Part shown: piece by piece, positions 3,065 to 32,952 of the stretch
How the letters are laid out: every line of letters begins with the position of its first letter
How positions within the stretch are numbered: position 1 is the stretch's first letter
Assembly (NCBI GenBank): GCA_938008185.1
Contig: CALLLR010000122.1
Span: 1 to 36,481, forward strand
Origin: an uncultured Saprospiraceae bacterium
GTDB taxonomy: Bacteria; Bacteroidota; Bacteroidia; Chitinophagales; Saprospiraceae
Reading direction: 5' to 3'
Length of the DNA stretch: 36,481 bases
The notes under the pieces: model-generated
Databases searched by the model: none
Told to the model about the DNA's origin: nothing
What the model saw: only the letters and a program-made list of their open reading frames with translations
Program-made: the position numbers and the translations under genes

Positions 3065-4330
3065 TTACATATTCTTAATGATCTCTTTCCCAAATTGTGA
3101 GCACTTTAGAAGTTTCGCACCGGTCATTAATCGTTCAAAATCGTAAGTTACCCGCTTGGAACGGATGGATTTACCAACCCCTTTTACGATCAGATCAGCT
3201 GCTTCGTTCCACCCCAGATAACGGAACATCATTTCTCCCGAAAGGATGACGGAACTAGGATTTACTTTATCCAATCCAGCATATTTGGGTGCCGTACCGT
3301 GCGTGGCTTCAAAAATTGCAATACCAGTGTTGTAATTGATATTTGCTCCGGGTGCGATACCAATGCCTCCTACCTGTGCAGCGAGGGCGTCTGAAATATA
3401 ATCACCGTTTAGATTGAGGGTAGCGATCACTGAATATTCGGCAGGTCTGAGAATAATCTGTTGTAAAAATGCATCCGCAATCACGTCTTTGATGAGAATC
3501 GCTCCTTTTGCCAGTGCTTTTTCCTGCATCTTGTTGGCTTTTGCCTTTCCACTCTTGGCAGCTACTCTATCATATTGCGCCCAGGTCCAGACTTTGTCAC
3601 CGTATTCGCGCTCGGCCATTTCGTAGCCCCACTCTTTAAACTTACCTTCGGTAAATTTCATGATATTCCCCTTGTGTACCAAAGTCACAGAAGGCTTTCC
3701 TTCTTTGATTGCGTGCTCGATAGAAGCACGAACCAAACGTTCCGTTCCTTCTTGAGATACCGGCTTGATTCCTAAAGAAACGCTTTCAGGAAATCGAATT
3801 CCTTTCGCCTTCATATCTTCCAGCAAAAACTTTCTCAATTTTTTGAGCTTAGCCGTACCCGCTAAATATTCGATACCCGCGTAAATATCTTCTGTGTTTT
3901 CACGGAAAATAATCATATCTACATCCTGTGGACGTTTTACAGGAGAAGGAACACCTTTGAAGTAAACCACCGGACGTACACAAGCGTATAAATCCAATTT
4001 TTGACGCAGCGCCACATTTAGTGATCTAATCCCTCCACCAACCGGGGTTGTCAGTGGCCCTTTGATGGCTACTTTACTCTTTTTGATTTCACGGAGTGAT
4101 TCTGCGGGTAACCATTTACCTGTTTTGTCAAAGGCTTTTTGACCTACCAAAATTTCCTGCCAGGCTATTTTCCGTTTTCCTTTGTAGGCTTTCTTGACAG
4201 CTGCGTCAAAAACCTGAACGGCGGCTGCCCAGATATCCGGACCAATTCCATCTCCCTCAATGAAAGGAATAATTGGATTGTCAGGAACGTGTAGTTCGTT
4301 ATTTTTAAAAGTGATTTTCTGTCCACTCAT
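3065..4330 (-). CDS. icd: NADP-dependent isocitrate dehydrogenase
   Basis: 421 residues, full length for the E. coli-type homodimeric enzyme that converts isocitrate to 2-oxoglutarate and CO2 in the TCA cycle. Substrate-binding residues are visible in [11 protein letters not shown] (Ser103, Asn105, Arg109), Arg119, and Arg143/Tyr150 in [14 protein letters not shown]. The segment [15 protein letters not shown] has the Lys-Tyr pair that selects NADP in this subfamily. Ser103 corresponds to the serine phosphorylated by AceK in E. coli; no aceK is in the window. The gene is monocistronic, with its own terminator and a -7 box about 69 nt upstream of the ATG. It supplies 2-oxoglutarate, the nitrogen-status signal read by PII, which is encoded 18 kb away. 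Confidence 0.96.
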
Positions 4331-4398
4331 TTTTGGATAAAATTTTATGATTATACCGGTTAATTAATTGAATACTAATTTTTTAGCTTAAATTTCTG

Positions 4399-4406
4399 CA
4401 AATGTA
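4399..4406 (-). promoter_or_regulatory. Candidate -7 box for icd
   Basis: The minus strand reads TACATTTG here, an exact fit to TAnnTTTG. The predicted leader is about 60 nt. No TTG is found at the -33 spacing. Confidence 0.4.
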
Positions 4407-4501
4407 GAAATTTTATTTCTTATTTGGAGAATCTTCCTTTTAAAAAATAATTAACACCCTTTTACTGTTATGTATACGTCACAATTGTGACAACAGATTC
4501 G

Positions 4502-4509
4502 TATTTTTG
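4502..4509 (+). promoter_or_regulatory. Candidate -7 box for the thioredoxin-fold gene
   Basis: TATTTTTG fits TAnnTTTG and lies 26 nt before the ATG at 4535. It falls inside the extension that a GTG start at 4487 would imply, which argues against that start. A TTG at 4485-4487 is closer than usual (14 nt). Confidence 0.4.
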
Positions 4510-4534
4510 GTGTTTATTTAAACAAAATTCTCTT

Positions 4535-5998
4535 ATGATGTTAAGAACCTTAACGCTATTTTTTTTCTTTGTCACTTCATTAACAATTTCGCCGCTGTTG
4601 GCCAGTGACTCTGGTCATAAAATCACCGTCGAAATTGAAAACTTTGATCAGCCTGAGGCTTACCTGGCTGGTTATATCGGCGATACTCCTTATATTTTAG
4701 ATACGGTGGCGGTAAAGAATGGAACAGTCGTTTTTTCTGGCGACACGCTACTCGACGCAGGCGTTTATCTGATTGTATTGCCACCAGACAATAAGTTTAT
4801 TCAAATTTTTGTAGACGTTAAGAATCAGAATTTTAATCTAAAAGCTAACTACGCCATGCTCGACAAGCAGGCTTTTACCATCACCGGTTCTCCCGCAAAT
4901 AAATTATTTTATGAATACGTCAATTTTTTGTCCACCAAAGGTCCTCAGGCCCGAGATTTACAAGAGCAAATCAAGGCGACAGAAGCAGAAGGAAAACCGG
5001 TAGACCAACTGCAGGATGCGCTGCAGGAGGTTAATAATAGTGTAAAAACTTACCAGCAACAATTAGTTAAAAATAACCCAAATTCTCCCGTAGCTACCTG
5101 GATCAAGTTTGGTTTTGAAACGGACATTCCCGAATTTATGGGTAACGAAAGTGAGGTGCAATTTCAGCGGTATATGTTCAGAAAAAAACATTTTTTTGAG
5201 CATATAAACTTTAATGATGCCAGCCTCTACCGTAATCCAATGTTGCCTAAAAAAGTGGATTACTACCTCGAACAGCTCACTCCGGCCACTCCGGATTCTA
5301 TCATTGTAGGAGTAGATTATATTTTAAATAAAGTAAAACCAGTCGAGAAAACATTCCGCTACTATCTCAGCCAACTCCTCAACCTGTACGCCGAGGAGGC
5401 TCAAACCAAAATTGGAATGGATGCCATATATGTTCACCTGGTCGACAATTACTATGCCCGTGGAATGGCTCCCTGGTTAGAGAAGGAACAACTGGAAAAA
5501 ATTATGCTGGAATCTCAGCGCCGCCGCCCCACCCTGATTGGTCGCAGAGCGATGAATATTGAGATGCGTAAAGAAGACGGCAGCAAAATTTCTCTTTATG
5601 ATATTGAGAGTCCGTATACCGTATTATACTTTTGGCGATACGATTGTAGTCACTGTAAAAAATCCACTCCATTCGTCACTGAATTTTACGAAAAGTTTAA
5701 GGACAAAGGCGTAAAAGTTATGGGTACTTGCGTAAAATTGAAAGAAAAAGACATAGAGGAATGCTGGAAGTATGTCCACGAAAAAGAAATGGATGACTGG
5801 ATTAATGTGGTGGATCCTGGTAATTTATCAAAATTTACCGCAAAGTACGATACCCGAATTACGCCTCGGATTTTTATTCTCGACAAAGACAAAAAAATTT
5901 TGATTAACCGAATAGGGGCCGAACAACTCGAAGAAGTGATGGAGCAAATCATCGAAGAAGACAGCCGCAAACTCAAAGAAAGCCTGGAGAATAAGTAA
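4535..5998 (+). CDS. Secreted thioredoxin-fold protein (DUF4369/DUF5106-like, TlpA/ResA-like)
   Basis: 487 residues from the ATG at 4535 (a second ATG follows at 4538). A signal peptide (about 1-24, ending PLLA) is followed by a DUF4369-like beta domain (about 27-125), a long helical middle region (about 130-340, DUF5106-like) and a C-terminal thioredoxin domain. The redox pair is Cys371/Cys374 in WRYDCSHCKKSTPF, and the cis-proline lies in TRITPRIF. Such proteins act in the periplasm or at the outer membrane as thiol oxidoreductases. An additional Cys in MGTCVKL is unusual. The frame is open upstream to a GTG at 4487, rejected because a promoter box lies there and a signal peptide starts at 4535. 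A long hairpin follows the gene. Confidence 0.85.
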   Translation: MMLRTLTLFFFFVTSLTISPLLASDSGHKITVEIENFDQPEAYLAGYIGDTPYILDTVAVKNGTVVFSGDTLLDAGVYLIVLPPDNKFIQIFVDVKNQNFNLKANYAMLDKQAFTITGSPANKLFYEYVNFLSTKGPQARDLQEQIKATEAEGKPVDQLQDALQEVNNSVKTYQQQLVKNNPNSPVATWIKFGFETDIPEFMGNESEVQFQRYMFRKKHFFEHINFNDASLYRNPMLPKKVDYYLEQLTPATPDSIIVGVDYILNKVKPVEKTFRYYLSQLLNLYAEEAQTKIGMDAIYVHLVDNYYARGMAPWLEKEQLEKIMLESQRRRPTLIGRRAMNIEMRKEDGSKISLYDIESPYTVLYFWRYDCSHCKKSTPFVTEFYEKFKDKGVKVMGTCVKLKEKDIEECWKYVHEKEMDDWINVVDPGNLSKFTAKYDTRITPRIFILDKDKKILINRIGAEQLEEVMEQIIEEDSRKLKESLENK

Positions 5999-6061
5999 TC
6001 GCTGCTGCTTTTCTTTTGAAGTTTCTTAAAAAATAATAACTTTACGTAACAGACTTTAGAG

Positions 6062-6154
6062 AACCGCTAATCAGATTTAACTAAGTGATGAACAACTGAT
6101 AAAATACCAATTTATTAATTGTTCATTACTAAAGTTCTGTTTAGCGGTTTTTTT
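6062..6154 (+). terminator. Long imperfect hairpin with T-run (terminator or small structured RNA)
   Basis: Outer arms at 6062-6075 and 6136-6149 pair with one mismatch. Inner arms at 6084-6095 and 6119-6130 pair with one mismatch (G-U compatible), and a third pair lies at 6097-6103/6111-6117. Together they make an 88-nt fold closed by a 7-nt loop. Seven T follow at 6148-6154, as in a rho-independent terminator. It is unusually long for a simple terminator. Confidence 0.65.
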
Positions 6155-6223
6155 GTAGTTGTCTCATAAATTTTATACCAATTACCAGGAAGCAGCCATT
6201 CCAGACCTTGCCATACCTTAACA

Positions 6224-7249
6224 ATGAACGAACACCTAGATCCTTCCGGCGAACACCTTGAACCTGCCGATCAGCAATTGGAAAAGGCCTTACGTCCTCA
6301 GGCATTAGAAGACTTTTCCGGTCAACCGAAAATAGTTTCAAACTTAAAAATTTTTATTGCTGCGGCCAGACAAAGAGGTGAAGCGTTGGATCATGTCCTG
6401 TTACATGGTCCTCCGGGACTGGGAAAGACCACCCTTTCACACATTATCTCCAACGAACTGGAAGCCAATCTAAAAATGACTTCGGGCCCAGTTTTAGAAA
6501 AACCAGGAGACCTGGCGGGTCTACTTACCAATCTGCAAGAGGGTGATGTTTTGTTTATTGATGAAATTCATAGACTGAATACCGTCGTAGAAGAATATCT
6601 CTATTCGGCAATGGAAGATTACCGGATTGACATCATGATCGACAGTGGACCCAACGCCCGGAGTATTCAAATCTCTCTTGAACCTTTTACCTTGATCGGC
6701 GCTACCACCCGGATGGGCCTACTCACCGCACCGATGCGTGCCCGATTTGGCATCAATTGTCATCTGGACTATTATGATGTCGCCATTCTGGAAAAAATAA
6801 TAAAACGGTCCGCCGGAATTTTAGATGTACCGATTGACACCGCAGGCGCACAAGAGATTGCCCGTCGTAGCCGTGGTACACCCCGGATAGCCAACGCCCT
6901 ACTCCGCCGGATTCGAGATTTTGCGCAAATAAAAGGAGATGGTAAGATTGGAATCAAGATCGCCAAATTTGGTTTGGAAGCACTGAACGTCGATAGCAGT
7001 GGTCTGGATGAAATGGACAATAAAATCCTTTCCACCATTATTCATAAATTTAAAGGAGGTCCGGTTGGAATCACTACGATTGGTACGGCAGTAGGAGAAG
7101 AAGCAGGAACAATTGAAGAGGTACACGAGCCTTTTCTAATCATGGAAGGTTACTTACAGCGAACACCAAGGGGCCGGGAAGCGACTGAGAAAGCTTACCA
7201 ACATTTAGGTATCGTACCACCTTCGCAGTCAAATACCCTCTTTGCTTAG
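6224..7249 (+). CDS. ruvB: Holliday junction branch migration helicase RuvB
   Basis: 341 residues, full family length. RuvB forms hexameric AAA+ rings that drive branch migration of RuvA-bound Holliday junctions in recombinational repair. Walker A GPPGLGKT is at 62-69, Walker B DEIH at 113-116, sensor 1 in GATTR (159-163), and the arginine finger region in MRARFG (Arg174). The middle domain and the C-terminal winged helix ([15 protein letters not shown]) are intact. The gene stands alone; ruvA and ruvC are not in the window. An acidic N-terminal extension of about 18 residues precedes the conserved [12 protein letters not shown]. Confidence 0.97.
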
Positions 7250-7293
7250 CTTTGTTGACATGCTAAGTATACTCATGTTTTATTGGTAGGAAT

Positions 7294-7336
7294 CTTCCTT
7301 AAAACACCTGTCCTTAAGACAGATGTTTAGAGGAAG
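7294..7336 (+). terminator. Hairpin downstream of ruvB
   Basis: CTTCCT (7294-7299) pairs with AGGAAG (7331-7336). Inside it, AACACCTGTC pairs with GACAGATGTT (one G-U position) around the loop CTTAA. There is no T-run, so it may be a factor-dependent terminator, an RNA-stabilising hairpin or an unrelated dyad. Confidence 0.4.
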
Positions 7337-7484
7337 GCATTTAAAGTTGTTCAACACCTTTTACGATAAAATTTTTTGCAGTCAAAATTTATAAGTTCCC
7401 TTCATGATGAGGATAGGTAGCCTAAACGTCCGTAGGTTGATCAAAATAGGTTTAGGTTCGGTACGTTTGACTTAACAATTTAGA

Positions 7485-7580
7485 TCAGAATCGTTTTGTA
7501 CGCGAAGAAGTAAGATTTGCCATTAAAACAATTCCTCCTCCCAATAAAAAACTTCCCGTAGCAATGTACAAAATAAGCAT
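7485..7580 (-). CDS. Possible 31-residue single-span membrane peptide
   Basis: The minus strand from the ATG at 7580 to the TGA at 7485-7487 encodes 31 residues beginning MLILYIATGSFLLGGG. A single hydrophobic stretch of about 20 residues is followed by a short basic tail (SRTKRF). That layout is common for bacterial small membrane proteins. No convincing promoter is visible, and an ORF this short can arise by chance in an 800-nt gap, so this is only a candidate. Confidence 0.3.
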   Translation of the reverse strand: MLILYIATGSFLLGGGIVLMANLTSSRTKRF

Positions 7581-8044
7581 AGTCTTGTGTTTTGTAAGTT
7601 TTGTAAATAGTCAATTAAAAAAATATGCACAAGAGGGATTACAACACATCATAAATACTTTAAATCCAATAAACAGTTGTTATCTTTAGGACGCAATTAG
7701 CCTCCATTAAGTAACGGAATTGTCTACTTAATTTAGTTTAAAAATTCAAATGGTATTTAAATGGATGCAGTGCGGTAAGTGGTACTACTCTAGTAAAGCA
7801 TCAGAACAGCTCTACTATTAATATAGTCTCAACTAATTAATCTCGTTTTTTTCTTAATATGTACGGTGGGAGTACTGCAATTTAGGATTATTTTTTAATT
7901 CTACAAAAAAATCATAAAAAATATTTAGATTTATCTTCGTCTAATTTATTCTAAACAATACACTATGTATAGGTATTAAATGCATCTAACTTAAGTGAGC
8001 TTTAATCAACTTAGATTAGAGTGTAGTGAACTTTACGCAAAAGT

Positions 8045-10615
8045 CTATTGCTTTACGAACATAGTAGTCCAGGCACGATCCGCAACGATAAAACTTACCT
8101 GGTAAATGCCGTTGGTATAATCAGACACATCAATAGTTTGATTTGAGATACCATTGAACGAATTAACCAACTGCCCTAAGTTATTATGAATTAAAACCTG
8201 ACCGATGTTCAAATCGGATTTGATAAATAACTGATCCATCACGGGATTCGGCATGATTAGAATATCATTAGCTAAGGTCGGATCATTGGTATTTACCAAA
8301 TCAAGAATATCGGCAGCATACCTTGGTAAAAACTGGTAGTTTGAATCAAAAGGTTCGTCAAAATCAAATTGTCCTCCTATTCCAATAGCATCAAAATTAG
8401 CAGGTAAAGTAGTTCCGAATAGTTCGGTGTCTGCGTCAATATACATCGTGTATTCGTTGGTACCGTCCGTTACTGTATAATTTTCCCCTGCGGGTTGGGC
8501 GTCTACACTCACAACCGTTAGATTATTGATTCGGATCAATTTAGATTCTTCATCTTCTCCCAGGTCAGTCGTAAATTCTGGAGCAAACAAAGCATTATCT
8601 GATGATAGTAAAATTACAGAATCCGCCGTTATCTGTTGTAAACCTCCGAATTGGTCAATGATTCCTATCACGGATACTTCATCTCCTTCGGTGACGGTAT
8701 AGTCGTAATCTGTACCTCCGGCAAAGACCGCAATTCCATCATCATTATCATTTTTATCAACCATCGTAAATAATAATCCACCAGAATTCAGATTAACACC
8801 GTAGACCACCCCACGTAGTTCACAAGAAACGTCAATAGAATCGACAATTCCTTGCTCATCAACGGTAGTTACATCCTGAATTTCCAAAAGTGGATAAATA
8901 TCAGGATCAATTCCGTCATTGTCCACAATGGTAATGACCAAATCCCCCATAGAACCAATCACCGCTCCATCCGCATCGGACAGGTTAAGGATAATTGTTT
9001 CAGAACCTTCTACAATAATATCATCAAGTAAAGAAATACTGAATTCTCCGTCGCTCACGCCTCCGTTTCCATCACTGCCAAAAGTGACCAGGGTATTATT
9101 TAAAACATAGTCGGTACCATCAATTGCCGATCCACCGACAATATTCAGGGTAACAGATGCAGTATCCATCTCACCAGTATTGGCCATTGACAAGCGGAAG
9201 GTAGCCATGATAGCTCCTTCATCTACGTCTTCCAGACCATTTTCAAAAAAGATATACGGAGTAGCAGAACAAGCATCGTTGGCAGCGCCGGGAGTAGCAT
9301 AAATAAAATTACCACTACCACCAGAAATTACGTTGGTGTTAGTGGTTGAAAAGCCCCAGGATTCCGGCTGGTTATTATCACTTTCCAAATCACAAAGACT
9401 TAAAGATGGTCCTTCACCGTCCGCGATTTCCGGCCAGCCAGCAGCATCGTTGTAGACCACCACATCTACCAGCTCTCCGTTGGCGTCCAGGAGAGTTATG
9501 TCTTCTCCGTTGTCGTTCAAACCACCGGACGTCCAGGCAATGGCATTGGTGCCAAAAGTAGCATTGAACGCAGAAGCGTCTTCTACCAGTAATAGATATG
9601 CTCCCGGTTGAATCATCACGGAAGGAAAGGTAAATTCTATACCCGACGAAAAAGTGTATCCTTCGAGGTTAACAGCAGCATCCCCAATATTGGTTAATTC
9701 GATAAAGTCAAAATTGTTGTCAGCCCCAGGAATGTTGTACATGATTTCGGAAATGACAATATCATTCGGAGGAAGGGGAAGAACGGTAACCGTACCCACC
9801 ATATCAAAGTTGACGTGAGGATCACATTGGTAATCATAAACGCCAACTTCGGTAAAAGTATAACTGAAAGTCCAGGCAGCACCAGAAGCAGCACCATTCC
9901 CAAATCCTTCTGGATTATCAGGATAAGTAGCCAGTGTACCATTTACATTGTGAAAACCACCGACATTGGTCCATTCCACTGTCTGTCCTGCAAAGATGGT
10001 AATATCAGCGGGAGTAAAAATATTACTGGAAACCTCCACCATCACATCCGCAGCCGGACAGACTGCCGTATTGGCAGCTCCAGGGGTACCGAGTACTTCT
10101 ACTCCGTCGAAGATCGTTCCCGTGGGATTGGTCGCATCAAACCAATTAGCTGCTTTGTTATTGTCTCTGTCCGGACTGCACAATTCCAGAGAAGATCCAT
10201 TTCCGTCGGCACCAGATGGCCAGGGAAAAACATTGCTATAATCAACCAGATCCATTATATTGCCGGAGGCATCAACCAGTTCGATGTCCTCACCATTATT
10301 ATTCAATCCGCCAAATTCCCACTGGATCGCCATTACACCGTAGGAATCCATCATTGCTTGAGCATCACCTGCTACGAGCAAGTAAGCATTGGCACCAATA
10401 GAAGTACCCGAAGCAAAGGTAAGGTCGATACCCTGTGTAAAATTCCATCCGGAAAGATCAACGGCTGCACCACTATTGTTAAATAACTCAATGTACTCGG
10501 TAGAATCCTGACCAGCGTCGGGAGAATTGTACATGATTTCATTGATGACGATCTGAGCCTGGATGACCCCAAACAAAGTCGTCATAAAGAAGAGGGTTGT
10601 AAAAAGTCTTTTCAT
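8045..10615 (-). CDS. T9SS-exported multidomain surface protein: lamin-tail, cupredoxin, lamin-tail, Calx-beta
   Basis: 856 residues. The signal peptide is residues 1-20. A first lamin-tail-like domain (about 21-160) opens IVINEIMYNSPDAG. A plastocyanin-like domain follows (about 187-279) with a full type 1 copper ligand set: His222, Cys264, His267, Met272. A second lamin-tail domain (about 284-448) opens DIVISEIMYNIPGAD. Next are a Calx-beta-like domain (about 452-566, ending ITIVDNDG), a beta-rich segment (about 575-772) resembling OB-fold/DUF5689 modules, and a type A sorting domain (about 783-856, starting ILIMPNPVMDQ). The protein is very acidic with many Asp/Asn, in line with Ca2+-binding beta modules. 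It should be exported and placed on the cell surface by the T9SS. Its function is unknown. It lies alone in its transcription unit. Confidence 0.88.
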   Translation of the reverse strand: MKRLFTTLFFMTTLFGVIQAQIVINEIMYNSPDAGQDSTEYIELFNNSGAAVDLSGWNFTQGIDLTFASGTSIGANAYLLVAGDAQAMMDSYGVMAIQWEFGGLNNNGEDIELVDASGNIMDLVDYSNVFPWPSGADGNGSSLELCSPDRDNNKAANWFDATNPTGTIFDGVEVLGTPGAANTAVCPAADVMVEVSSNIFTPADITIFAGQTVEWTNVGGFHNVNGTLATYPDNPEGFGNGAASGAAWTFSYTFTEVGVYDYQCDPHVNFDMVGTVTVLPLPPNDIVISEIMYNIPGADNNFDFIELTNIGDAAVNLEGYTFSSGIEFTFPSVMIQPGAYLLLVEDASAFNATFGTNAIAWTSGGLNDNGEDITLLDANGELVDVVVYNDAAGWPEIADGEGPSLSLCDLESDNNQPESWGFSTTNTNVISGGSGNFIYATPGAANDACSATPYIFFENGLEDVDEGAIMATFRLSMANTGEMDTASVTLNIVGGSAIDGTDYVLNNTLVTFGSDGNGGVSDGEFSISLLDDIIVEGSETIILNLSDADGAVIGSMGDLVITIVDNDGIDPDIYPLLEIQDVTTVDEQGIVDSIDVSCELRGVVYGVNLNSGGLLFTMVDKNDNDDGIAVFAGGTDYDYTVTEGDEVSVIGIIDQFGGLQQITADSVILLSSDNALFAPEFTTDLGEDEESKLIRINNLTVVSVDAQPAGENYTVTDGTNEYTMYIDADTELFGTTLPANFDAIGIGGQFDFDEPFDSNYQFLPRYAADILDLVNTNDPTLANDILIMPNPVMDQLFIKSDLNIGQVLIHNNLGQLVNSFNGISNQTIDVSDYTNGIYQVSFIVADRAWTTMFVKQ

Positions 10616-28136: not shown

Positions 28137-29777
28137 ATGGGCTTATCATCGGTAAAGCGATTTTGGAATTTGTTATCACAATATAAATCTGAAATCAGGC
28201 AAATATATATCTATGCGATTTTTATTGGAGTAGTAAATCTTACTTTACCATTGGGTATTCAGGCCATAATCAATTATATTCAGACGGGAGAAATAACCTC
28301 TTCCTGGATAGTTTTGGTTGGTTTTGTATTAATAGGAATTGCGATTACGGGCACTTTGCAGGTAGTACAGTTGAGGATTGTGGAAAATATTCAGCAAGAC
28401 CTTTTTGCGCGGTCCGCTTTTGAATTTGCTTACAGGATTCCAAAAATTACATTCTTTCAACTTGATAAGATTCACGCACCCGAGCTGGCCAATCGTTTTT
28501 TTGATACTCTAACCATTCAGAAGGGATTACCAAAAATTTTAATAGACTTTTCGCTGGCTATTTTTCAGATTACTTTTGGATTGATTTTACTGGCGATCTA
28601 CAGTCCCTATTTCATTATTCTTGGATTTTCTTTGGTCGTAATTCTGGTATTAATATTTAGAATTACGGGACCAAGCGGTTTGCAAACGAGTTTAATGGAG
28701 AGTAAATATAAATATCGACTGGTCCATTGGCTTGAGGAAGTCGCACGGGTTAACCGGAGTTTTAAATTAAACGGGTACAGTAAGTTTCATCTTGAGAAAG
28801 CGGATGATATCGTCGTAGGATATTTAGGCCAGCGGGAAAAGCATTTTCAGGTGTTGATTAATCAATTTCGATTTTTCATCGCTTTTAAAGTATTTCTGGC
28901 AGCGGGTTTATTGATCCTTGGTGGGTTTTTGGTGTTTAGTGATGAGATGAATTTAGGGCAGTTTGTCGCCGCAGAAATTGTGATCATCTTGATAATAAAT
29001 TCCGTAGAAAAGGTATTAAGAATTATTGATACCATTTACGATGTATTGACCGCTCTGGAAAAGATTGGCTACGTGACTGATCTAAAACTAGATACCAATA
29101 CCGGTACCGCAGAAATAGAAGAAGAAGCTGCTTTGAGTATAGACGCGGTAGATATTGAATTTAGTTTTCCGGATGAAAAGAGAAGTATTTTTGAAAATCT
29201 TTCGTTTGAGATACCTGCGGGTGGAAAGGTCTGTATCACCGGAAAATCAGGAAGTGGTAAAACTTTATTATTACAAATTATTGCTGGTATTCATCAGATT
29301 GCAGATGGAGAAATTTATATTGGTGGTGTGCCGCTGGTTAATTATAACCGAGATAATTTATATGCACAAATTGGTATCGCTTTTCCAACCAACCAACTCT
29401 TTGAAGGAACCTTTAAAGAAAATATTCTGATAGGGCGTTTGATTTCTGATAAAAGTCTGCAGGAAGTCACGAAAATTCTTTCTCTCGATCGGTATTTTGT
29501 CAAACAACCAAAAGGAATCGATAGCTTTGTCGATAGTGGCGGAAGAAGGCTTCCACGGAGTATTATTCAAAAACTATTAATCGCCAGAATTTTGGTGGCT
29601 CGACCGAAGCTTTTACTGCTCGAAGATCCACTGCAGTTTGTAGAAGAACAAACCAAAAAAGCCATTATCGATTATATTATGAGTCCCGAAAGAGACTGGA
29701 CCGTAATAGTTGTCGCGGATTATTATTACTGGAAAGAAAAGACAACCTCAACGATTAATTTATCACCTTTAATTTAA
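28137..29777 (+). CDS. Type-I-secretion-like ABC protein with degenerate ATPase motifs
   Basis: 546 residues: an ABC exporter membrane domain (about 1-310, six hydrophobic segments, no peptidase C39 domain) and a nucleotide-binding domain (about 335-546). Walker A GKSGSGKT (369-376) is intact. Aligned by eye, the other motifs are altered. The Q-loop glutamine position is Pro417, the LSGGQ signature is LPRSI (472-476), the Walker B end reads LLLLEDP (Glu496-Asp497, reverse of DE), and the H-loop histidine is Asp528 (VVADYYYW). It may bind ATP but hydrolyse it poorly or not at all. It is the first gene of an operon with HlyD-, thioesterase- and TolC-type genes, so a secretion or efflux role is likely. 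Confidence 0.85.
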   Translation: MGLSSVKRFWNLLSQYKSEIRQIYIYAIFIGVVNLTLPLGIQAIINYIQTGEITSSWIVLVGFVLIGIAITGTLQVVQLRIVENIQQDLFARSAFEFAYRIPKITFFQLDKIHAPELANRFFDTLTIQKGLPKILIDFSLAIFQITFGLILLAIYSPYFIILGFSLVVILVLIFRITGPSGLQTSLMESKYKYRLVHWLEEVARVNRSFKLNGYSKFHLEKADDIVVGYLGQREKHFQVLINQFRFFIAFKVFLAAGLLILGGFLVFSDEMNLGQFVAAEIVIILIINSVEKVLRIIDTIYDVLTALEKIGYVTDLKLDTNTGTAEIEEEAALSIDAVDIEFSFPDEKRSIFENLSFEIPAGGKVCITGKSGSGKTLLLQIIAGIHQIADGEIYIGGVPLVNYNRDNLYAQIGIAFPTNQLFEGTFKENILIGRLISDKSLQEVTKILSLDRYFVKQPKGIDSFVDSGGRRLPRSIIQKLLIARILVARPKLLLLEDPLQFVEEQTKKAIIDYIMSPERDWTVIVVADYYYWKEKTTSTINLSPLI

Positions 29778-29780
29778 ATT

Positions 29781-31160
29781 ATGCTCAATATATCAGAAAA
29801 TAGTATTAATTCTTATATAAATTTGAGTGACTTTAAATCATTTGGTTTATTAAGAAAATCCAAGGTCAAAAAACTGTCCTTGTTTTTGTTTTTGGCTTTA
29901 TTACTAATATTTATTATCGCCTTGTTTTTACCCTGGACCCAAAATATTCAAGCAAAAGGTCAGGTCACTACACTTTTACCGGAACAACGTCCTCAGGCGA
30001 TACAATCCGTTATTTCCGGTCGGTTGGAAAACTGGTTCGTAAGGGAAGGCGATTTTGTCATGGCGGGAGATACCATTGTACATCTATCGGAAGTAAAAAG
30101 TGAATATTTTGATCCGGATTTGATTGCCCGGACCACCGAGCAGGTAGATGCCAAAAGTCAGAGTATCACTTCGTATGATGCCAAAGTAAGAGCGCTGGAA
30201 AAACAGTACAAAGCACTGGAACAGTCGCTGATCCTGAAAATGGAACAAACCAGAAATAAAATTCAGCAAGGCCGTAATAAAATAAACACCGATAGTATTG
30301 ATCTGGTGGCTTTTAAATTAAATCTGGAGATTGCTGAAAATCAGTTTGAGCGAACTCAGCAATTATTTGATAAAGGGCTGAAATCACTATCTGAACTGCA
30401 GGAGAAAGAATTGAAATTACAACAAACCCGGGCAAAGGTGACGGTTCAGGAAAACAAATTACTGAACCAAAGAAATATGCTGATTAATTCAAAGATTGAG
30501 TTGGGGGCCATTGAAAATGAGTACGTAGATAAATTGTCCAAATCGCAATCGGATCAACAATCTGCGCTTTCAGCCAAACTCGAAACCATGGCGGCTACCT
30601 CTAAATTGCAAAACCAATTAAGTAATTATAGTCAGCGTCAACAATTCTATTTTATTACCGCACCACAATCTGGTTACGTCACCAAGACCGTTAAAAAGGG
30701 GATCGGAGAAATTGTCAAAGAAGGTACTGATATTGTGACGATTATGCCCGACGTATATGACCTGGCGGTAGAAACATATTTGCTGCCACAGGATTTACCG
30801 TTGATTCGTCCGGGGGATGAAGTAAGGTTGCGTTTTGATGGTTGGCCTGCCATTGTAATTAGTGGCTGGCCGGAAGCCTCTACCGGAATTTTTTCGGGTA
30901 ATATTGTGGCGATTGATCGGTTCATTAGTGAAAATGGTTATTACCGGATTATGATCAGTCCCAATAACGAAGAAAAAGAATGGCCCCAAATTCTGAGGGT
31001 AGGAACGGGAGTCAACTCTTTTATTTTATTGAATGATGTACCCATTTGGTACGAAATATGGCGACAGTTAAATGGCTTTCCAGCTGATTTTTACAAGAAG
31101 GCCGAAGGGGAAAAAGAAGAAAAAATTAAGCGTAAAGCACCCGCAAAATCAATTAAATAA
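29781..31160 (+). CDS. HlyD-family periplasmic adaptor
   Basis: 459 residues. One inner-membrane helix (about 30-52) is followed by the first lipoyl half (about 65-108), a long coiled-coil hairpin (about 115-295), the second lipoyl half (FITAPQSGYVTKTV, about 295-335) and a beta-barrel domain (about 340-430). These proteins bridge the inner-membrane exporter and the TolC-type channel. Its start lies 3 nt after the stop of the ABC gene and its stop 1 nt before the thioesterase gene. The C-terminal tail is very basic and Glu/Lys-rich. Confidence 0.9.
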   Translation: MLNISENSINSYINLSDFKSFGLLRKSKVKKLSLFLFLALLLIFIIALFLPWTQNIQAKGQVTTLLPEQRPQAIQSVISGRLENWFVREGDFVMAGDTIVHLSEVKSEYFDPDLIARTTEQVDAKSQSITSYDAKVRALEKQYKALEQSLILKMEQTRNKIQQGRNKINTDSIDLVAFKLNLEIAENQFERTQQLFDKGLKSLSELQEKELKLQQTRAKVTVQENKLLNQRNMLINSKIELGAIENEYVDKLSKSQSDQQSALSAKLETMAATSKLQNQLSNYSQRQQFYFITAPQSGYVTKTVKKGIGEIVKEGTDIVTIMPDVYDLAVETYLLPQDLPLIRPGDEVRLRFDGWPAIVISGWPEASTGIFSGNIVAIDRFISENGYYRIMISPNNEEKEWPQILRVGTGVNSFILLNDVPIWYEIWRQLNGFPADFYKKAEGEKEEKIKRKAPAKSIK

Positions 31161-31161
31161 T

Positions 31162-31545
31162 ATGAATTTTTATTCAAGGAAATTAATCAAACCAGGCGAT
31201 CTTAACGCACGAAATACGCTATTTGGTGGTGCATTGTTGAGATGGATTGACGAGGAGGCGGGTATCTATGCCATGACCAAACTGGACTCAAAGAACGTTG
31301 TGACAAAATATATGTCCGAAATTAATTTTGTCAATTCTGCGGAGCAAGGGGATGTGATTGAAATCGGACTCGGCTTTAATAAAATAGGGCGTACGTCCAT
31401 CAGTTTTTCTTGTGAAGTGCGTAATGTATTTAATAAAAGAACGATCATCAAAATTGATAATATTGTTTTTGTCCTGGTTGGTGAAGATGGAAAACCTAGA
31501 CCCCACGGAAAAACCCTCGATAATTTAAAGCTCTTAAAATCCTAA
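31162..31545 (+). CDS. Hotdog-fold acyl-CoA thioesterase
   Basis: 127 residues from the ATG at 31162. The same frame is open upstream to 31072, but that part overlaps the HlyD gene and would make an odd Lys-rich leader. The ACOT/YciA hallmark NTLFGGALLRWIDEEAGIYA covers the hotdog helix with its catalytic acidic residues; the strands VTKYMSEINFVN and DVIEIGLGFNKIGRTSI fit the family. It hydrolyses acyl-CoA to free acid and CoA in the cytoplasm; chain specificity is unknown. It lies inside the export operon, 1 nt after hlyD and 6 nt before the TolC-type gene, so it is surely co-transcribed with them. Confidence 0.88.
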   Translation: MNFYSRKLIKPGDLNARNTLFGGALLRWIDEEAGIYAMTKLDSKNVVTKYMSEINFVNSAEQGDVIEIGLGFNKIGRTSISFSCEVRNVFNKRTIIKIDNIVFVLVGEDGKPRPHGKTLDNLKLLKS

Positions 31546-31551
31546 AAAGAA

Positions 31552-32952
31552 ATGCTGGAATTACTGAAAGGGAGATGTATTTGGGTCGTAATATTTTTAT
31601 TAACTTTTTTGGTTGGACAGGCACAACCAGACAGTACTGTTTTGTCTTATCAGGAATATCTGGTCAATATCCTTAACTATCATCCGATTGCCCAACAGGC
31701 CAATCTAAAACTGGAGTTGGCCGACTTAGCGTGGTTGTCCGCCAAGGGTAATCTGGATCCAACCCTCAATGCAGACTGGAACCAAAAGAATTTTGATGAT
31801 AAAAGATATTACCGGATTTTTAACAACCGCTTACGGGTCCCGACCAAATACGGTATTTCGGTCGTAGCGGGATACGAAAATACGCAAGGTGTTTTTTTAA
31901 ATCCCGAAAAAACGACGGACGAGTTTGGATTATGGAACGTCGGAATCGAAGTAGATGTGCTGCAAGGATTGCTGGTAAACGAACGGCGGATCGCCTTAGA
32001 TCAGGCCATTGTCATGCAGGATATGGCATTTAATCAACAACAGATTATTCTTAACGAATTACTTTTCTCCGCCTCTCTGGCCTATCTGAATTGGCAACAA
32101 TTTTTTTACGTACAATCTGTTCTATTAGAAAACGAAGTATTAGCGACGCAGTATTTGGAAAATACAAAGGAGTCTTTTTTCGGTGGAGAAAAAACGGCGA
32201 TGGATACCTTAGAGGCTTTTATTTTATTACAGGATGCCATTGCTTTGACCAATTATAACAACGTTGATCTACAAGATTCCAGACAAATGGTTGAGAATTT
32301 TTTGTGGTTTAATCAAGTGCCGCTGGAATTAGAACCCCTTACCAAACCCGAGGATTACCGCCGTGAGTTATTTACCGTAAGCGATGTCAGAAATATTCAG
32401 GAACTGACCCGGACCAATCCTTTAATTATGGAAAAACTGAATAAACTGAATTTAAATGAGCTGGACTTAAGACTCAAAAAAGAAAAATTAAAACCCAAAC
32501 TAAAGGCAAAAGTTAATCCCTTGCTGGCGACTACTGATAATCTGGTGCCTACCTATAATACTTCGGATTACAAACTGGGATTCGAGTTCTCTATGCCGCT
32601 ATTTTTACGATCCGAAAGAGCCGATGTAAAAATGGGGGAAATCAAAATTCAGGAAGGTTTGCTGGATGTTCAAAATAAGCAAAACGAGATCCTTAACAAG
32701 ATCGAAAGTAATCTGTTACAACAAATCATCTTGCGGGATCAGGTTAATCTGATCGCTCAAAACGTAGCGGGTTATAAGGCATTACTCGACGGGGAAAATA
32801 TAAAATTTCAATTCGGTGAAAGCTCCGTATTTTTACTCAATAAAAGGCAAGAAAAATACATCAACGGTCGGATCAAACTGATTGAATTAAATTTAAAACT
32901 GAATTCGGTTCTGCTAAAATATCTTTATTATATCAATGATCTGGTTCGATAA
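31552..32952 (+). CDS. TolC-family outer-membrane factor
   Basis: 466 residues. A signal peptide (about 1-24, ending VGQAQ) is followed by the repeated helix-strand layout of outer-membrane efflux proteins: long helices (about 45-75, 150-255, 275-305, 365-450) alternating with short barrel strands such as RVPTKYGISVVAGYEN and YKLGFEFSMPLFL. It forms the outer-membrane channel for the ABC-HlyD pair in the same operon. It is the last gene of the unit; 98 nt separate it from the oxidoreductase gene, without a clear terminator. Confidence 0.87.
   Translation: MLELLKGRCIWVVIFLLTFLVGQAQPDSTVLSYQEYLVNILNYHPIAQQANLKLELADLAWLSAKGNLDPTLNADWNQKNFDDKRYYRIFNNRLRVPTKYGISVVAGYENTQGVFLNPEKTTDEFGLWNVGIEVDVLQGLLVNERRIALDQAIVMQDMAFNQQQIILNELLFSASLAYLNWQQFFYVQSVLLENEVLATQYLENTKESFFGGEKTAMDTLEAFILLQDAIALTNYNNVDLQDSRQMVENFLWFNQVPLELEPLTKPEDYRRELFTVSDVRNIQELTRTNPLIMEKLNKLNLNELDLRLKKEKLKPKLKAKVNPLLATTDNLVPTYNTSDYKLGFEFSMPLFLRSERADVKMGEIKIQEGLLDVQNKQNEILNKIESNLLQQIILRDQVNLIAQNVAGYKALLDGENIKFQFGESSVFLLNKRQEKYINGRIKLIELNLKLNSVLLKYLYYINDLVR

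Follow-up and report, generated by a model that had tools for sequence, protein, structure and literature searches.

ATP-binding cassette (ABC) transporters are defined by their ATPase. The closest described precedents for an exporter fold that dispenses with it are laboratory constructs: LmrA and MsbA truncated to remove the nucleotide-binding domain (NBD), known as LmrA-MD and MsbA-MD, are reported to carry out ion-coupled transport, for which a glutamate in the sixth transmembrane helix (TM6) of LmrA matters (PMC2704374, PMC6155054, PMC4979069). The window analysed here, a stretch of 36,481 nucleotides from an uncultured Saprospiraceae bacterium (contig CALLLR010000122.1), contains a gene for an ABC-exporter half whose NBD keeps Walker A and little else of the catalytic motifs, followed by genes for HlyD- and TolC-type proteins. 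Its relatives form a family in which the NBD decays by degrees and is finally absent. We propose, with a rough probability of 0.55, that these are tripartite exporters derived from ABC exporters and built from a dimer of transmembrane domains (TMDs), HlyD and TolC, in which ATP hydrolysis would no longer be used and an ion gradient would perhaps drive transport.

What this family would share with LmrA-MD and MsbA-MD is a type IV exporter TMD without an NBD. Those proteins, however, are truncations of ATP-driven pumps, assayed without HlyD or TolC, whereas here decay and loss of the NBD are natural, lie within a tripartite operon and are known from sequence. HlyB–HlyD–TolC type I secretion systems (T1SS) and the exporters of the PCAT/NHLM group have gene order, HlyD, TolC and TMD fold in common with the window, where ABC exporter, HlyD and TolC, the set that makes up type I secretion, stand together. 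The family's best NCBIfam matches, among those listed, are NHLM_micro_ABC1 and LssB. The window protein differs from these systems in that its ATPase motifs are absent, that Pfam finds no C39 domain in it, and that among the best 25 of its 161 NCBIfam matches, T1SS and PCAT exporter models included, none reaches the curated cut-off (156.2 of 853.3 bits for the best, 155 of 693 for another and 103.1 of 725.55 for the HlyB model).

Heterodimeric exporters such as TmrAB, TM287/288 and BmrCD also contain a half with non-canonical catalytic residues. Their partner half keeps catalysis, as described for TmrAB (PMC8277102), whereas here no partner was found and only Walker A is kept. In MacAB–TolC and the tripartite pumps of the resistance-nodulation-division (RND) and major facilitator superfamily (MFS) types, an inner-membrane transporter likewise works with a membrane fusion protein and TolC. 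RND and MFS tripartite pumps are ion-driven; the inner-membrane component here differs from theirs and from MacB in having the ABC type IV exporter fold. The sphingomonad hlyB–hlyD–omp operon HlyBD2-OMP2 of Blastomonas fulva, in gene sizes like those of a Sphingobium member of the family described below, is treated from genome analysis as an ABC-type pump (PMC9505733); the likeness drawn here is one of operon and sizes alone.

A degenerate NBD in the window and its relatives

The window protein matches Pfam ABC_membrane (36.8 bits) and ABC_tran (63.6 bits), both above the gathering thresholds. AlphaFold models it as an entire ABC exporter half (mean predicted local distance difference test, pLDDT, 85.4; predicted template modelling score, pTM, 0.73); the motif positions given here come from sequence alignment. 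The best match in the PDB is chain B of TmrAB (6rai_B; Z 29.5, root-mean-square deviation 2.1 Å, 536 residues), and HlyB (8dck_B, Z 29.1), PCAT1 and MsbA (Z about 29) are also near. Fold and Walker A are thus those of a type IV exporter, while the LSGGQ signature, the Walker B Asp and catalytic Glu, the Q-loop Gln and the H-loop His are missing.

The original prediction had placed these losses by eye, with Pro417 at the Q-loop, LPRSI at the signature, Glu-Asp at Walker B and Asp528 at the H-loop beside an intact Walker A, and two alignments reproduce that placement. HMMER comparison with solved ABCB-type NBDs aligned IAFPTN to LVSQEP, LPRSI to LSGGQ and LLLED to LLLDE, with a single one-residue gap in the interval from Q-loop to signature and none inside the motifs. 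MAFFT, run with seven other exporters from this genome, gave Pro at 417, LPRSI at 472–476, Glu at 496, Asp at 497, Asp at 528 and a preserved Walker A at 369–376, as well as Phe at the A-loop position, 344. The D-loop is also replaced, with QFVEE at the SALD position. Aligning the NBD with exporters and homologues yielded no alternative placement of a signature, catalytic Glu or H-loop His; the sole signature-like string in the window NBD, DSGG (466–469), lies six residues upstream of where the signature aligns. Absence of the Q-loop Gln by itself poorly indicates inactivity, as this residue is also missing from a C39-peptidase exporter encoded in this genome (L008:631-3084) that has LSTGQ, Asp-Glu and His. 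We read the combined motif losses of the window NBD as loss of its ATPase activity. ATP binding by this NBD is plausible, since Walker A and an aromatic A-loop residue are kept; against binding as a property of the whole family, Walker A or the entire NBD is missing from some relatives.

Scanning named genomes yielded 69 distinct loci, and 61 relatives with 37–93% identity were aligned with the window protein (62 rows). Nearly all 61 carry the same motif losses. Their sources are Saprospiraceae, Flavobacteriaceae, Cyclobacteriaceae, Marinilabiliaceae, Raineyaceae, Schleiferiaceae and other groups, and a small number of contigs bear the label Gemmatimonadota or Planctomycetota. When the profile was restricted to the TMD, matches (E up to 1e-10) were found in 98 of the 395 genomes sampled from the phylum, and the score range from 95 to 225 bits was empty. 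We then counted motifs in 118 NBD-bearing members of the degenerate clade, a census that pools two genome collections with redundancy kept (by coordinates, L037 is the genome of L089) and omits the two copies of the window locus (L001 and L088). Walker A is present in 110, the signature LS.G[QE] in none, Asp-Glu in one (L070), the H-loop His in five and the Q-loop Gln in seven; signature, Asp-Glu, His and Q-loop Gln are all absent from 106. The suggestion that the window protein belongs to a family-wide, poorly described variant in Bacteroidota is thereby borne out, and the graded decay and complete loss of the NBD go beyond what had been proposed. Searches of open-access literature, a set in which subscription papers are mostly uncovered, turned up no description of this degenerate exporter family.

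The residues that replace the motifs vary by clade. In some members Walker A is gone together with the other motifs: L059, L152, one on an Aureibacter plasmid and one on a Sphingobium plasmid, the last with an NBD that Pfam no longer reports. This alphaproteobacterial member (L383, plasmid pHAL16) extends the family beyond Bacteroidota. Immediately upstream of it is a DabA-type gene (PF10070, inorganic-carbon transporter subunit); the region concerned is L383:1362-3914 and 3958-8156. Four further loci on contigs labelled Gemmatimonas, Gemmatimonadaceae or Kuenenia (L070, L075, L076 and L081) show the Walker A Lys replaced, with Asp-Glu or Asp-Asp and the H-loop His kept, a pattern that we interpret as decay in a different order.

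An N-terminal extension of 150–200 amino acids is present in many basal and intermediate members and in some from Cytophagales (L071:7506-8000, L081:7497-8000; also members of about 680–832 amino acids such as L163 and L170). A Pfam scan of two of these proteins gave no match to the extension, which is possibly the remnant of a C39-like domain. In public annotation, six of ten plasmid records name their family members "ABC transporter ATP-binding protein", and the other four list no feature there.

From intact motifs to TMD-only genes

Trees built on the TMD place these forms in sequence. All five basal rows keep LSTG[QE], Asp-Glu and His; among 23 intermediate rows, Asp-Glu is found in 21, His in 16 and the signature in none; and in the main clade signature, Asp-Glu and His are nearly all lost. 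The first tree was rooted on long-branched canonical exporters, which leaves its root unsure, and the second on the basal rows; both omit the fragments L082 and L177, and similar rows were thinned. Along the TMD tree the ATPase motifs decay stepwise, and the extant members would represent a series that runs from intact motifs through an NBD without signature, an NBD with Walker A only and an NBD without Walker A to no NBD at all.

The end of this series is a set of TMD-only genes. They form one clade (Shimodaira–Hasegawa-like approximate likelihood ratio test, SH-aLRT, 99) nested in the degenerate clade and spanning three GTDB families; an earlier count of at least three independent NBD losses was rejected on this grouping. 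The clade may have reached the three families by descent or by transfer. Hand counts of short-frame genes per matched genomes in these families were 24 in 66 for f3 (three doubtful genes omitted), 52 in 139 for f10 and 32 in 128 for f9, the inferred family of Pontibacter. The 36 TMD-only genes that were read encode 332–379 amino acids and end right after the TMD. In 36 of 36, HlyD comes next, either overlapping or at most 101 bases away, with TolC behind it; nine have a TetR-like gene upstream. Two of the proteins were scanned: ABC_membrane was their sole Pfam match, and all their NCBIfam matches (six of six and four of four) fell under the cut-offs. A model of a TMD-only protein is an ABC-exporter TMD (pLDDT 87.1), with TM-scores of 0.83 to HlyB (8dck_A) and 0.84 to 6rai_B. 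In genome G606 two copies are TMD-only and a third is full-length and degenerate (L342, L343 and L344). Each has its own HlyD and TolC, and the genome so offers a natural side-by-side comparison of the two forms.

Conservation reaches at least 90% in 60 columns of NBD-bearing members. In 44 of these, at least 90% of the TMD-only genes have the identical residue, including Glu83, Glu116, Asn119, Arg120, Gln128, Lys129, Glu188, Ser189, Lys192, Tyr193, Arg233, His236, Glu280, Lys292, Asp302 and Lys309. Glu280 and Lys292 are each present in 36 of 36 TMD-only rows. Position 280 holds an acidic residue, Glu or Asp, in all 71 degenerate rows with an NBD, and Glu in 15 of 15 intermediate and four of five basal rows. 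Among ten tabulated segments, coupling helix 2 (198–214) alone shows entropy above that of NBD-bearing members, and Phe209, present in 99% of the latter, remains in four of 36; relaxation of this helix is expected once its docking partner, the NBD, is gone. This comparison sets 36 rows against 71, sets unequal in size and diversity, and takes helix roles from the model and from general knowledge of the fold. Taken together, 36 natural NBD-less genes that keep operon and residues suggest that the TMD works without an NBD.

The same emphasis on the TMD is evident among members that retain an NBD. The 62-row alignment contains 44 invariant columns, of which 39 are in the TMD and five in the NBD. 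Conservation was higher in the TMD than in the NBD for all 400 family pairs, compared with 123 of 190 basal or intermediate pairs and five of 385 canonical pairs. Only rows with a standard Walker A entered this comparison; pairs were drawn at random, 400 per set, of which 385 canonical pairs passed the length filter, and the 190 are all pairs among 20 rows. The canonical control consists of 32 Bacteroidota exporters, a mix of paralogues and orthologues picked because their motifs could be recognised. Selective weight has, on these comparisons, shifted toward the TMD. Between the window and L041, the ratio of nonsynonymous to synonymous substitution rates (dN/dS) is 0.055 for the NBD and 0.012 for the TMD, at a dS of 1.4–1.5, which is near saturation. 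Both domains are under purifying selection in the clade of the window, which implies that the NBD is retained there for something.

Operon and the search for a partner

Coordinates of the window gene, its motifs and its neighbours are collected in Table 1. The HlyD-type protein also matches TIGR01843, at 110.9 bits, under the model's cut-off of 208.65. Among 107 homologous loci with room downstream, HlyD follows at 100 and TolC at 100.

Table 1. Features of the exporter operon in the window, with positions in the whole stretch
Feature	Positions	Strand	Remarks
ABC-exporter half, type IV fold, NBD apparently catalytically degenerate	28137..29777	+	546 amino acids; intact open reading frame and translation
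TMD, residues 1–320	28137..29096	+	
Glu280, TM6	28974..28976	+	model helix 273–314
Walker A GKSGSGKT, residues 369–376	29241..29264	+	intact
Pro417	29385..29387	+	occupies Q-loop Gln position
LPRSI, residues 472–476	29550..29564	+	replaces LSGGQ; within stretch DSGGRRLPRSIIQK, conserved among the window's nearer relatives
Glu496-Asp497	29622..29627	+	replaces Walker B Asp and catalytic Glu
Asp528	29718..29720	+	at H-loop His position
HlyD-type membrane fusion protein	29781..31160	+	3 bases past the ABC gene; Pfam HlyD_D23 and HlyD_3 above cut-offs
Hot-dog acyl-CoA-thioesterase-like protein	31162..31545	+	in the HlyD–TolC interval; Pfam 4HBT 53.8 bits
TolC-type outer-membrane factor	31552..32952	+	Pfam OEP 57.8 bits

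The thioesterase inserted in the window operon recurs at 21 of the 63 family loci L019–L081, 14 of them from records labelled Saprospiraceae or Portibacter, and at 15 of 107 loci in the differently chosen set with downstream room. A TetR-like regulator of one subfamily lies no more than two genes upstream at 49 of 150 loci, a count that includes two copies of the window's own locus, both lacking such a match; TetR_N was found in both examples scanned. The thioesterase insertion hints at an acyl or lipid cargo. With the relatives' TetR regulators it weakly favours, as cargo, a hydrophobic or acyl-type small molecule over a repeats-in-toxin (RTX) protein.

A partner ABC half had been suggested as one way out for the degenerate protein, and the search for one lent the idea no support. 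Another NBD-encoding frame lies within 6 kb at eight of 107 loci; that of L078 is the family gene's own NBD past a masked stretch, and only the 583-residue product at L169 is exporter-sized. The candidate f25 partner half was discarded: the upstream NBD frames of 953–987 amino acids read as UvrA-like in L130 and L134, where they have two ABC modules and lack an exporter TMD, a reading made by sequence inspection for these two and by size and place for L131 and L176.

A partner encoded elsewhere was sought in whole genomes. The genome of the window (64% complete, 281 contigs) is too incomplete to judge this alone. Further PF00664 exporters are present in each of the 11 family-bearing genomes searched. 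In G375, which is 99% complete, there are three, and each has a reciprocal best hit in seven of seven other family-bearing genomes; they therefore look general and not like dedicated partners, within a comparison that covers family-bearing genomes only. For a detached NBD, profile A3 matched 43–52 places per genome in the first six TMD-only genomes and did not discriminate. Frames of up to 350 amino acids scored at most 107 bits and attached family NBDs mostly above 155 with a similar profile (L152 only 95), which is weak evidence. The idea that the window genome also encodes a sister family, one that joins this TMD to a canonical NBD, was rejected, as the seven other exporters of that genome scored at most 23 bits, or nothing, with the TMD profile.

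Energy source, alternatives and implications

Of the explanations put forward in the original prediction, a different energy cycle is the best open reading of the window-type exporter. The simplest machine would be a TMD homodimer that feeds HlyD–TolC without ATP hydrolysis. Export against a gradient without ATP hydrolysis requires another energy source, and an ion gradient could drive the homodimeric TMD in the way reported for LmrA-MD and MsbA-MD. Glu280 in TM6, Glu83, Lys129, Lys192, His236 and Lys292 are candidate coupling or substrate sites. In the window lineage the NBD would probably bind nucleotide without turnover, or would serve only to clamp the dimer or to regulate it. On one view the ancestral TMD could already couple ions, which would have made the ATPase dispensable. 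Carried further, the family may be a natural and widespread tripartite class in which the ABC TMD has turned into a stand-alone, ion-driven secondary transporter with its intermediates extant; we put this forward tentatively, at somewhat less than even odds.

Several points weigh against a proposal of this kind. The search found no transport or ATPase data for any family member. According to one study, full-length MsbA with the Walker A Lys deleted, and hence ATPase-impaired, was inactive in transport, while the NBD-less form was active, and the resistance conferred by full-length MsbA exceeded that of MsbA-MD (PMC4979069). A dead NBD left in place thus need not be harmless. In another, adding ATP to LmrA-MD under a membrane potential gave no current (PMC6155054). 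Within the family, basal rows with intact motifs already have Glu83, Lys129, Lys192, Arg233 and His236 (five of five) and Glu280 (four of five); these charged residues did not arise with loss of the ATPase and may serve substrate passage. Lys292 is found in only one of the five. Purifying selection on the NBD in the window's clade, with its own conserved stretch DSGGRRLPRS, also indicates that this NBD does something.

The main rival to ion coupling is a gated conduit, in which the TMD dimer would be a passive gate, an anchor or a platform for HlyD–TolC assembly and cargo would move downhill or enter from the periplasm. Losing the NBD while TMD, HlyD and TolC are kept calls for no new energy source on such a scheme, and ion coupling is what we infer for this family. 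We nevertheless consider a conduit unlikely: about twenty invariant polar or charged TMD residues, including the Glu and Lys of TM6, exceed the apparent needs of an anchor, and the ancestor was probably a pump, since basal members keep the catalytic motifs. Supply of ATP hydrolysis in trans by a canonical half encoded elsewhere would follow the degenerate-site heterodimers exemplified by TmrAB (PMC8277102), and the further PF00664 exporters found in every family-bearing genome searched could provide such a half. However, the scarcity of exporter-sized neighbours (L169 alone among the 107 loci) and the general look of the three exporters of G375 make this distinctly improbable, and a half without an NBD could not form a two-NBD sandwich.

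That the window-type NBD still hydrolyses ATP in a non-canonical way, through Glu496/Asp497 and the DSGGRRLPRS stretch, would fit with Walker A in 110 of 118 members, purifying selection on the NBD and the conservation of clade-specific stretches. Yet the replacements differ between clades, and the operon persists where Walker A is lost (L152, L059 and the Aureibacter and Sphingobium members) and where the NBD is absent (36 genes), so we regard such an ATPase as highly improbable. The fragmented assembly of the window genome might raise the suspicion of an assembly or annotation artefact, or of a decaying pseudogene. This we discount almost entirely, as the same losses occur in isolate genomes (Portibacter, Echinicola, Wenyingzhuangia, Raineya and Flavobacterium) and in complete plasmid records, dN/dS is low, and conservation across species refutes it.

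If a tripartite exporter that no longer uses ATP hydrolysis is the correct reading, this would be, to our knowledge, the first example from nature of ABC exporters that work without ATP. What has been claimed on the basis of LmrA-MD and MsbA-MD, an ability of exporter TMDs to serve as ion-coupled carriers, would then become directly testable in proteins naturally stripped of their NBDs, and a demonstration of ion coupling would potentially establish a new class of tripartite transporter. For the reading of Bacteroidota genomes, it matters that genes annotated "ABC transporter ATP-binding protein" may not use ATP.

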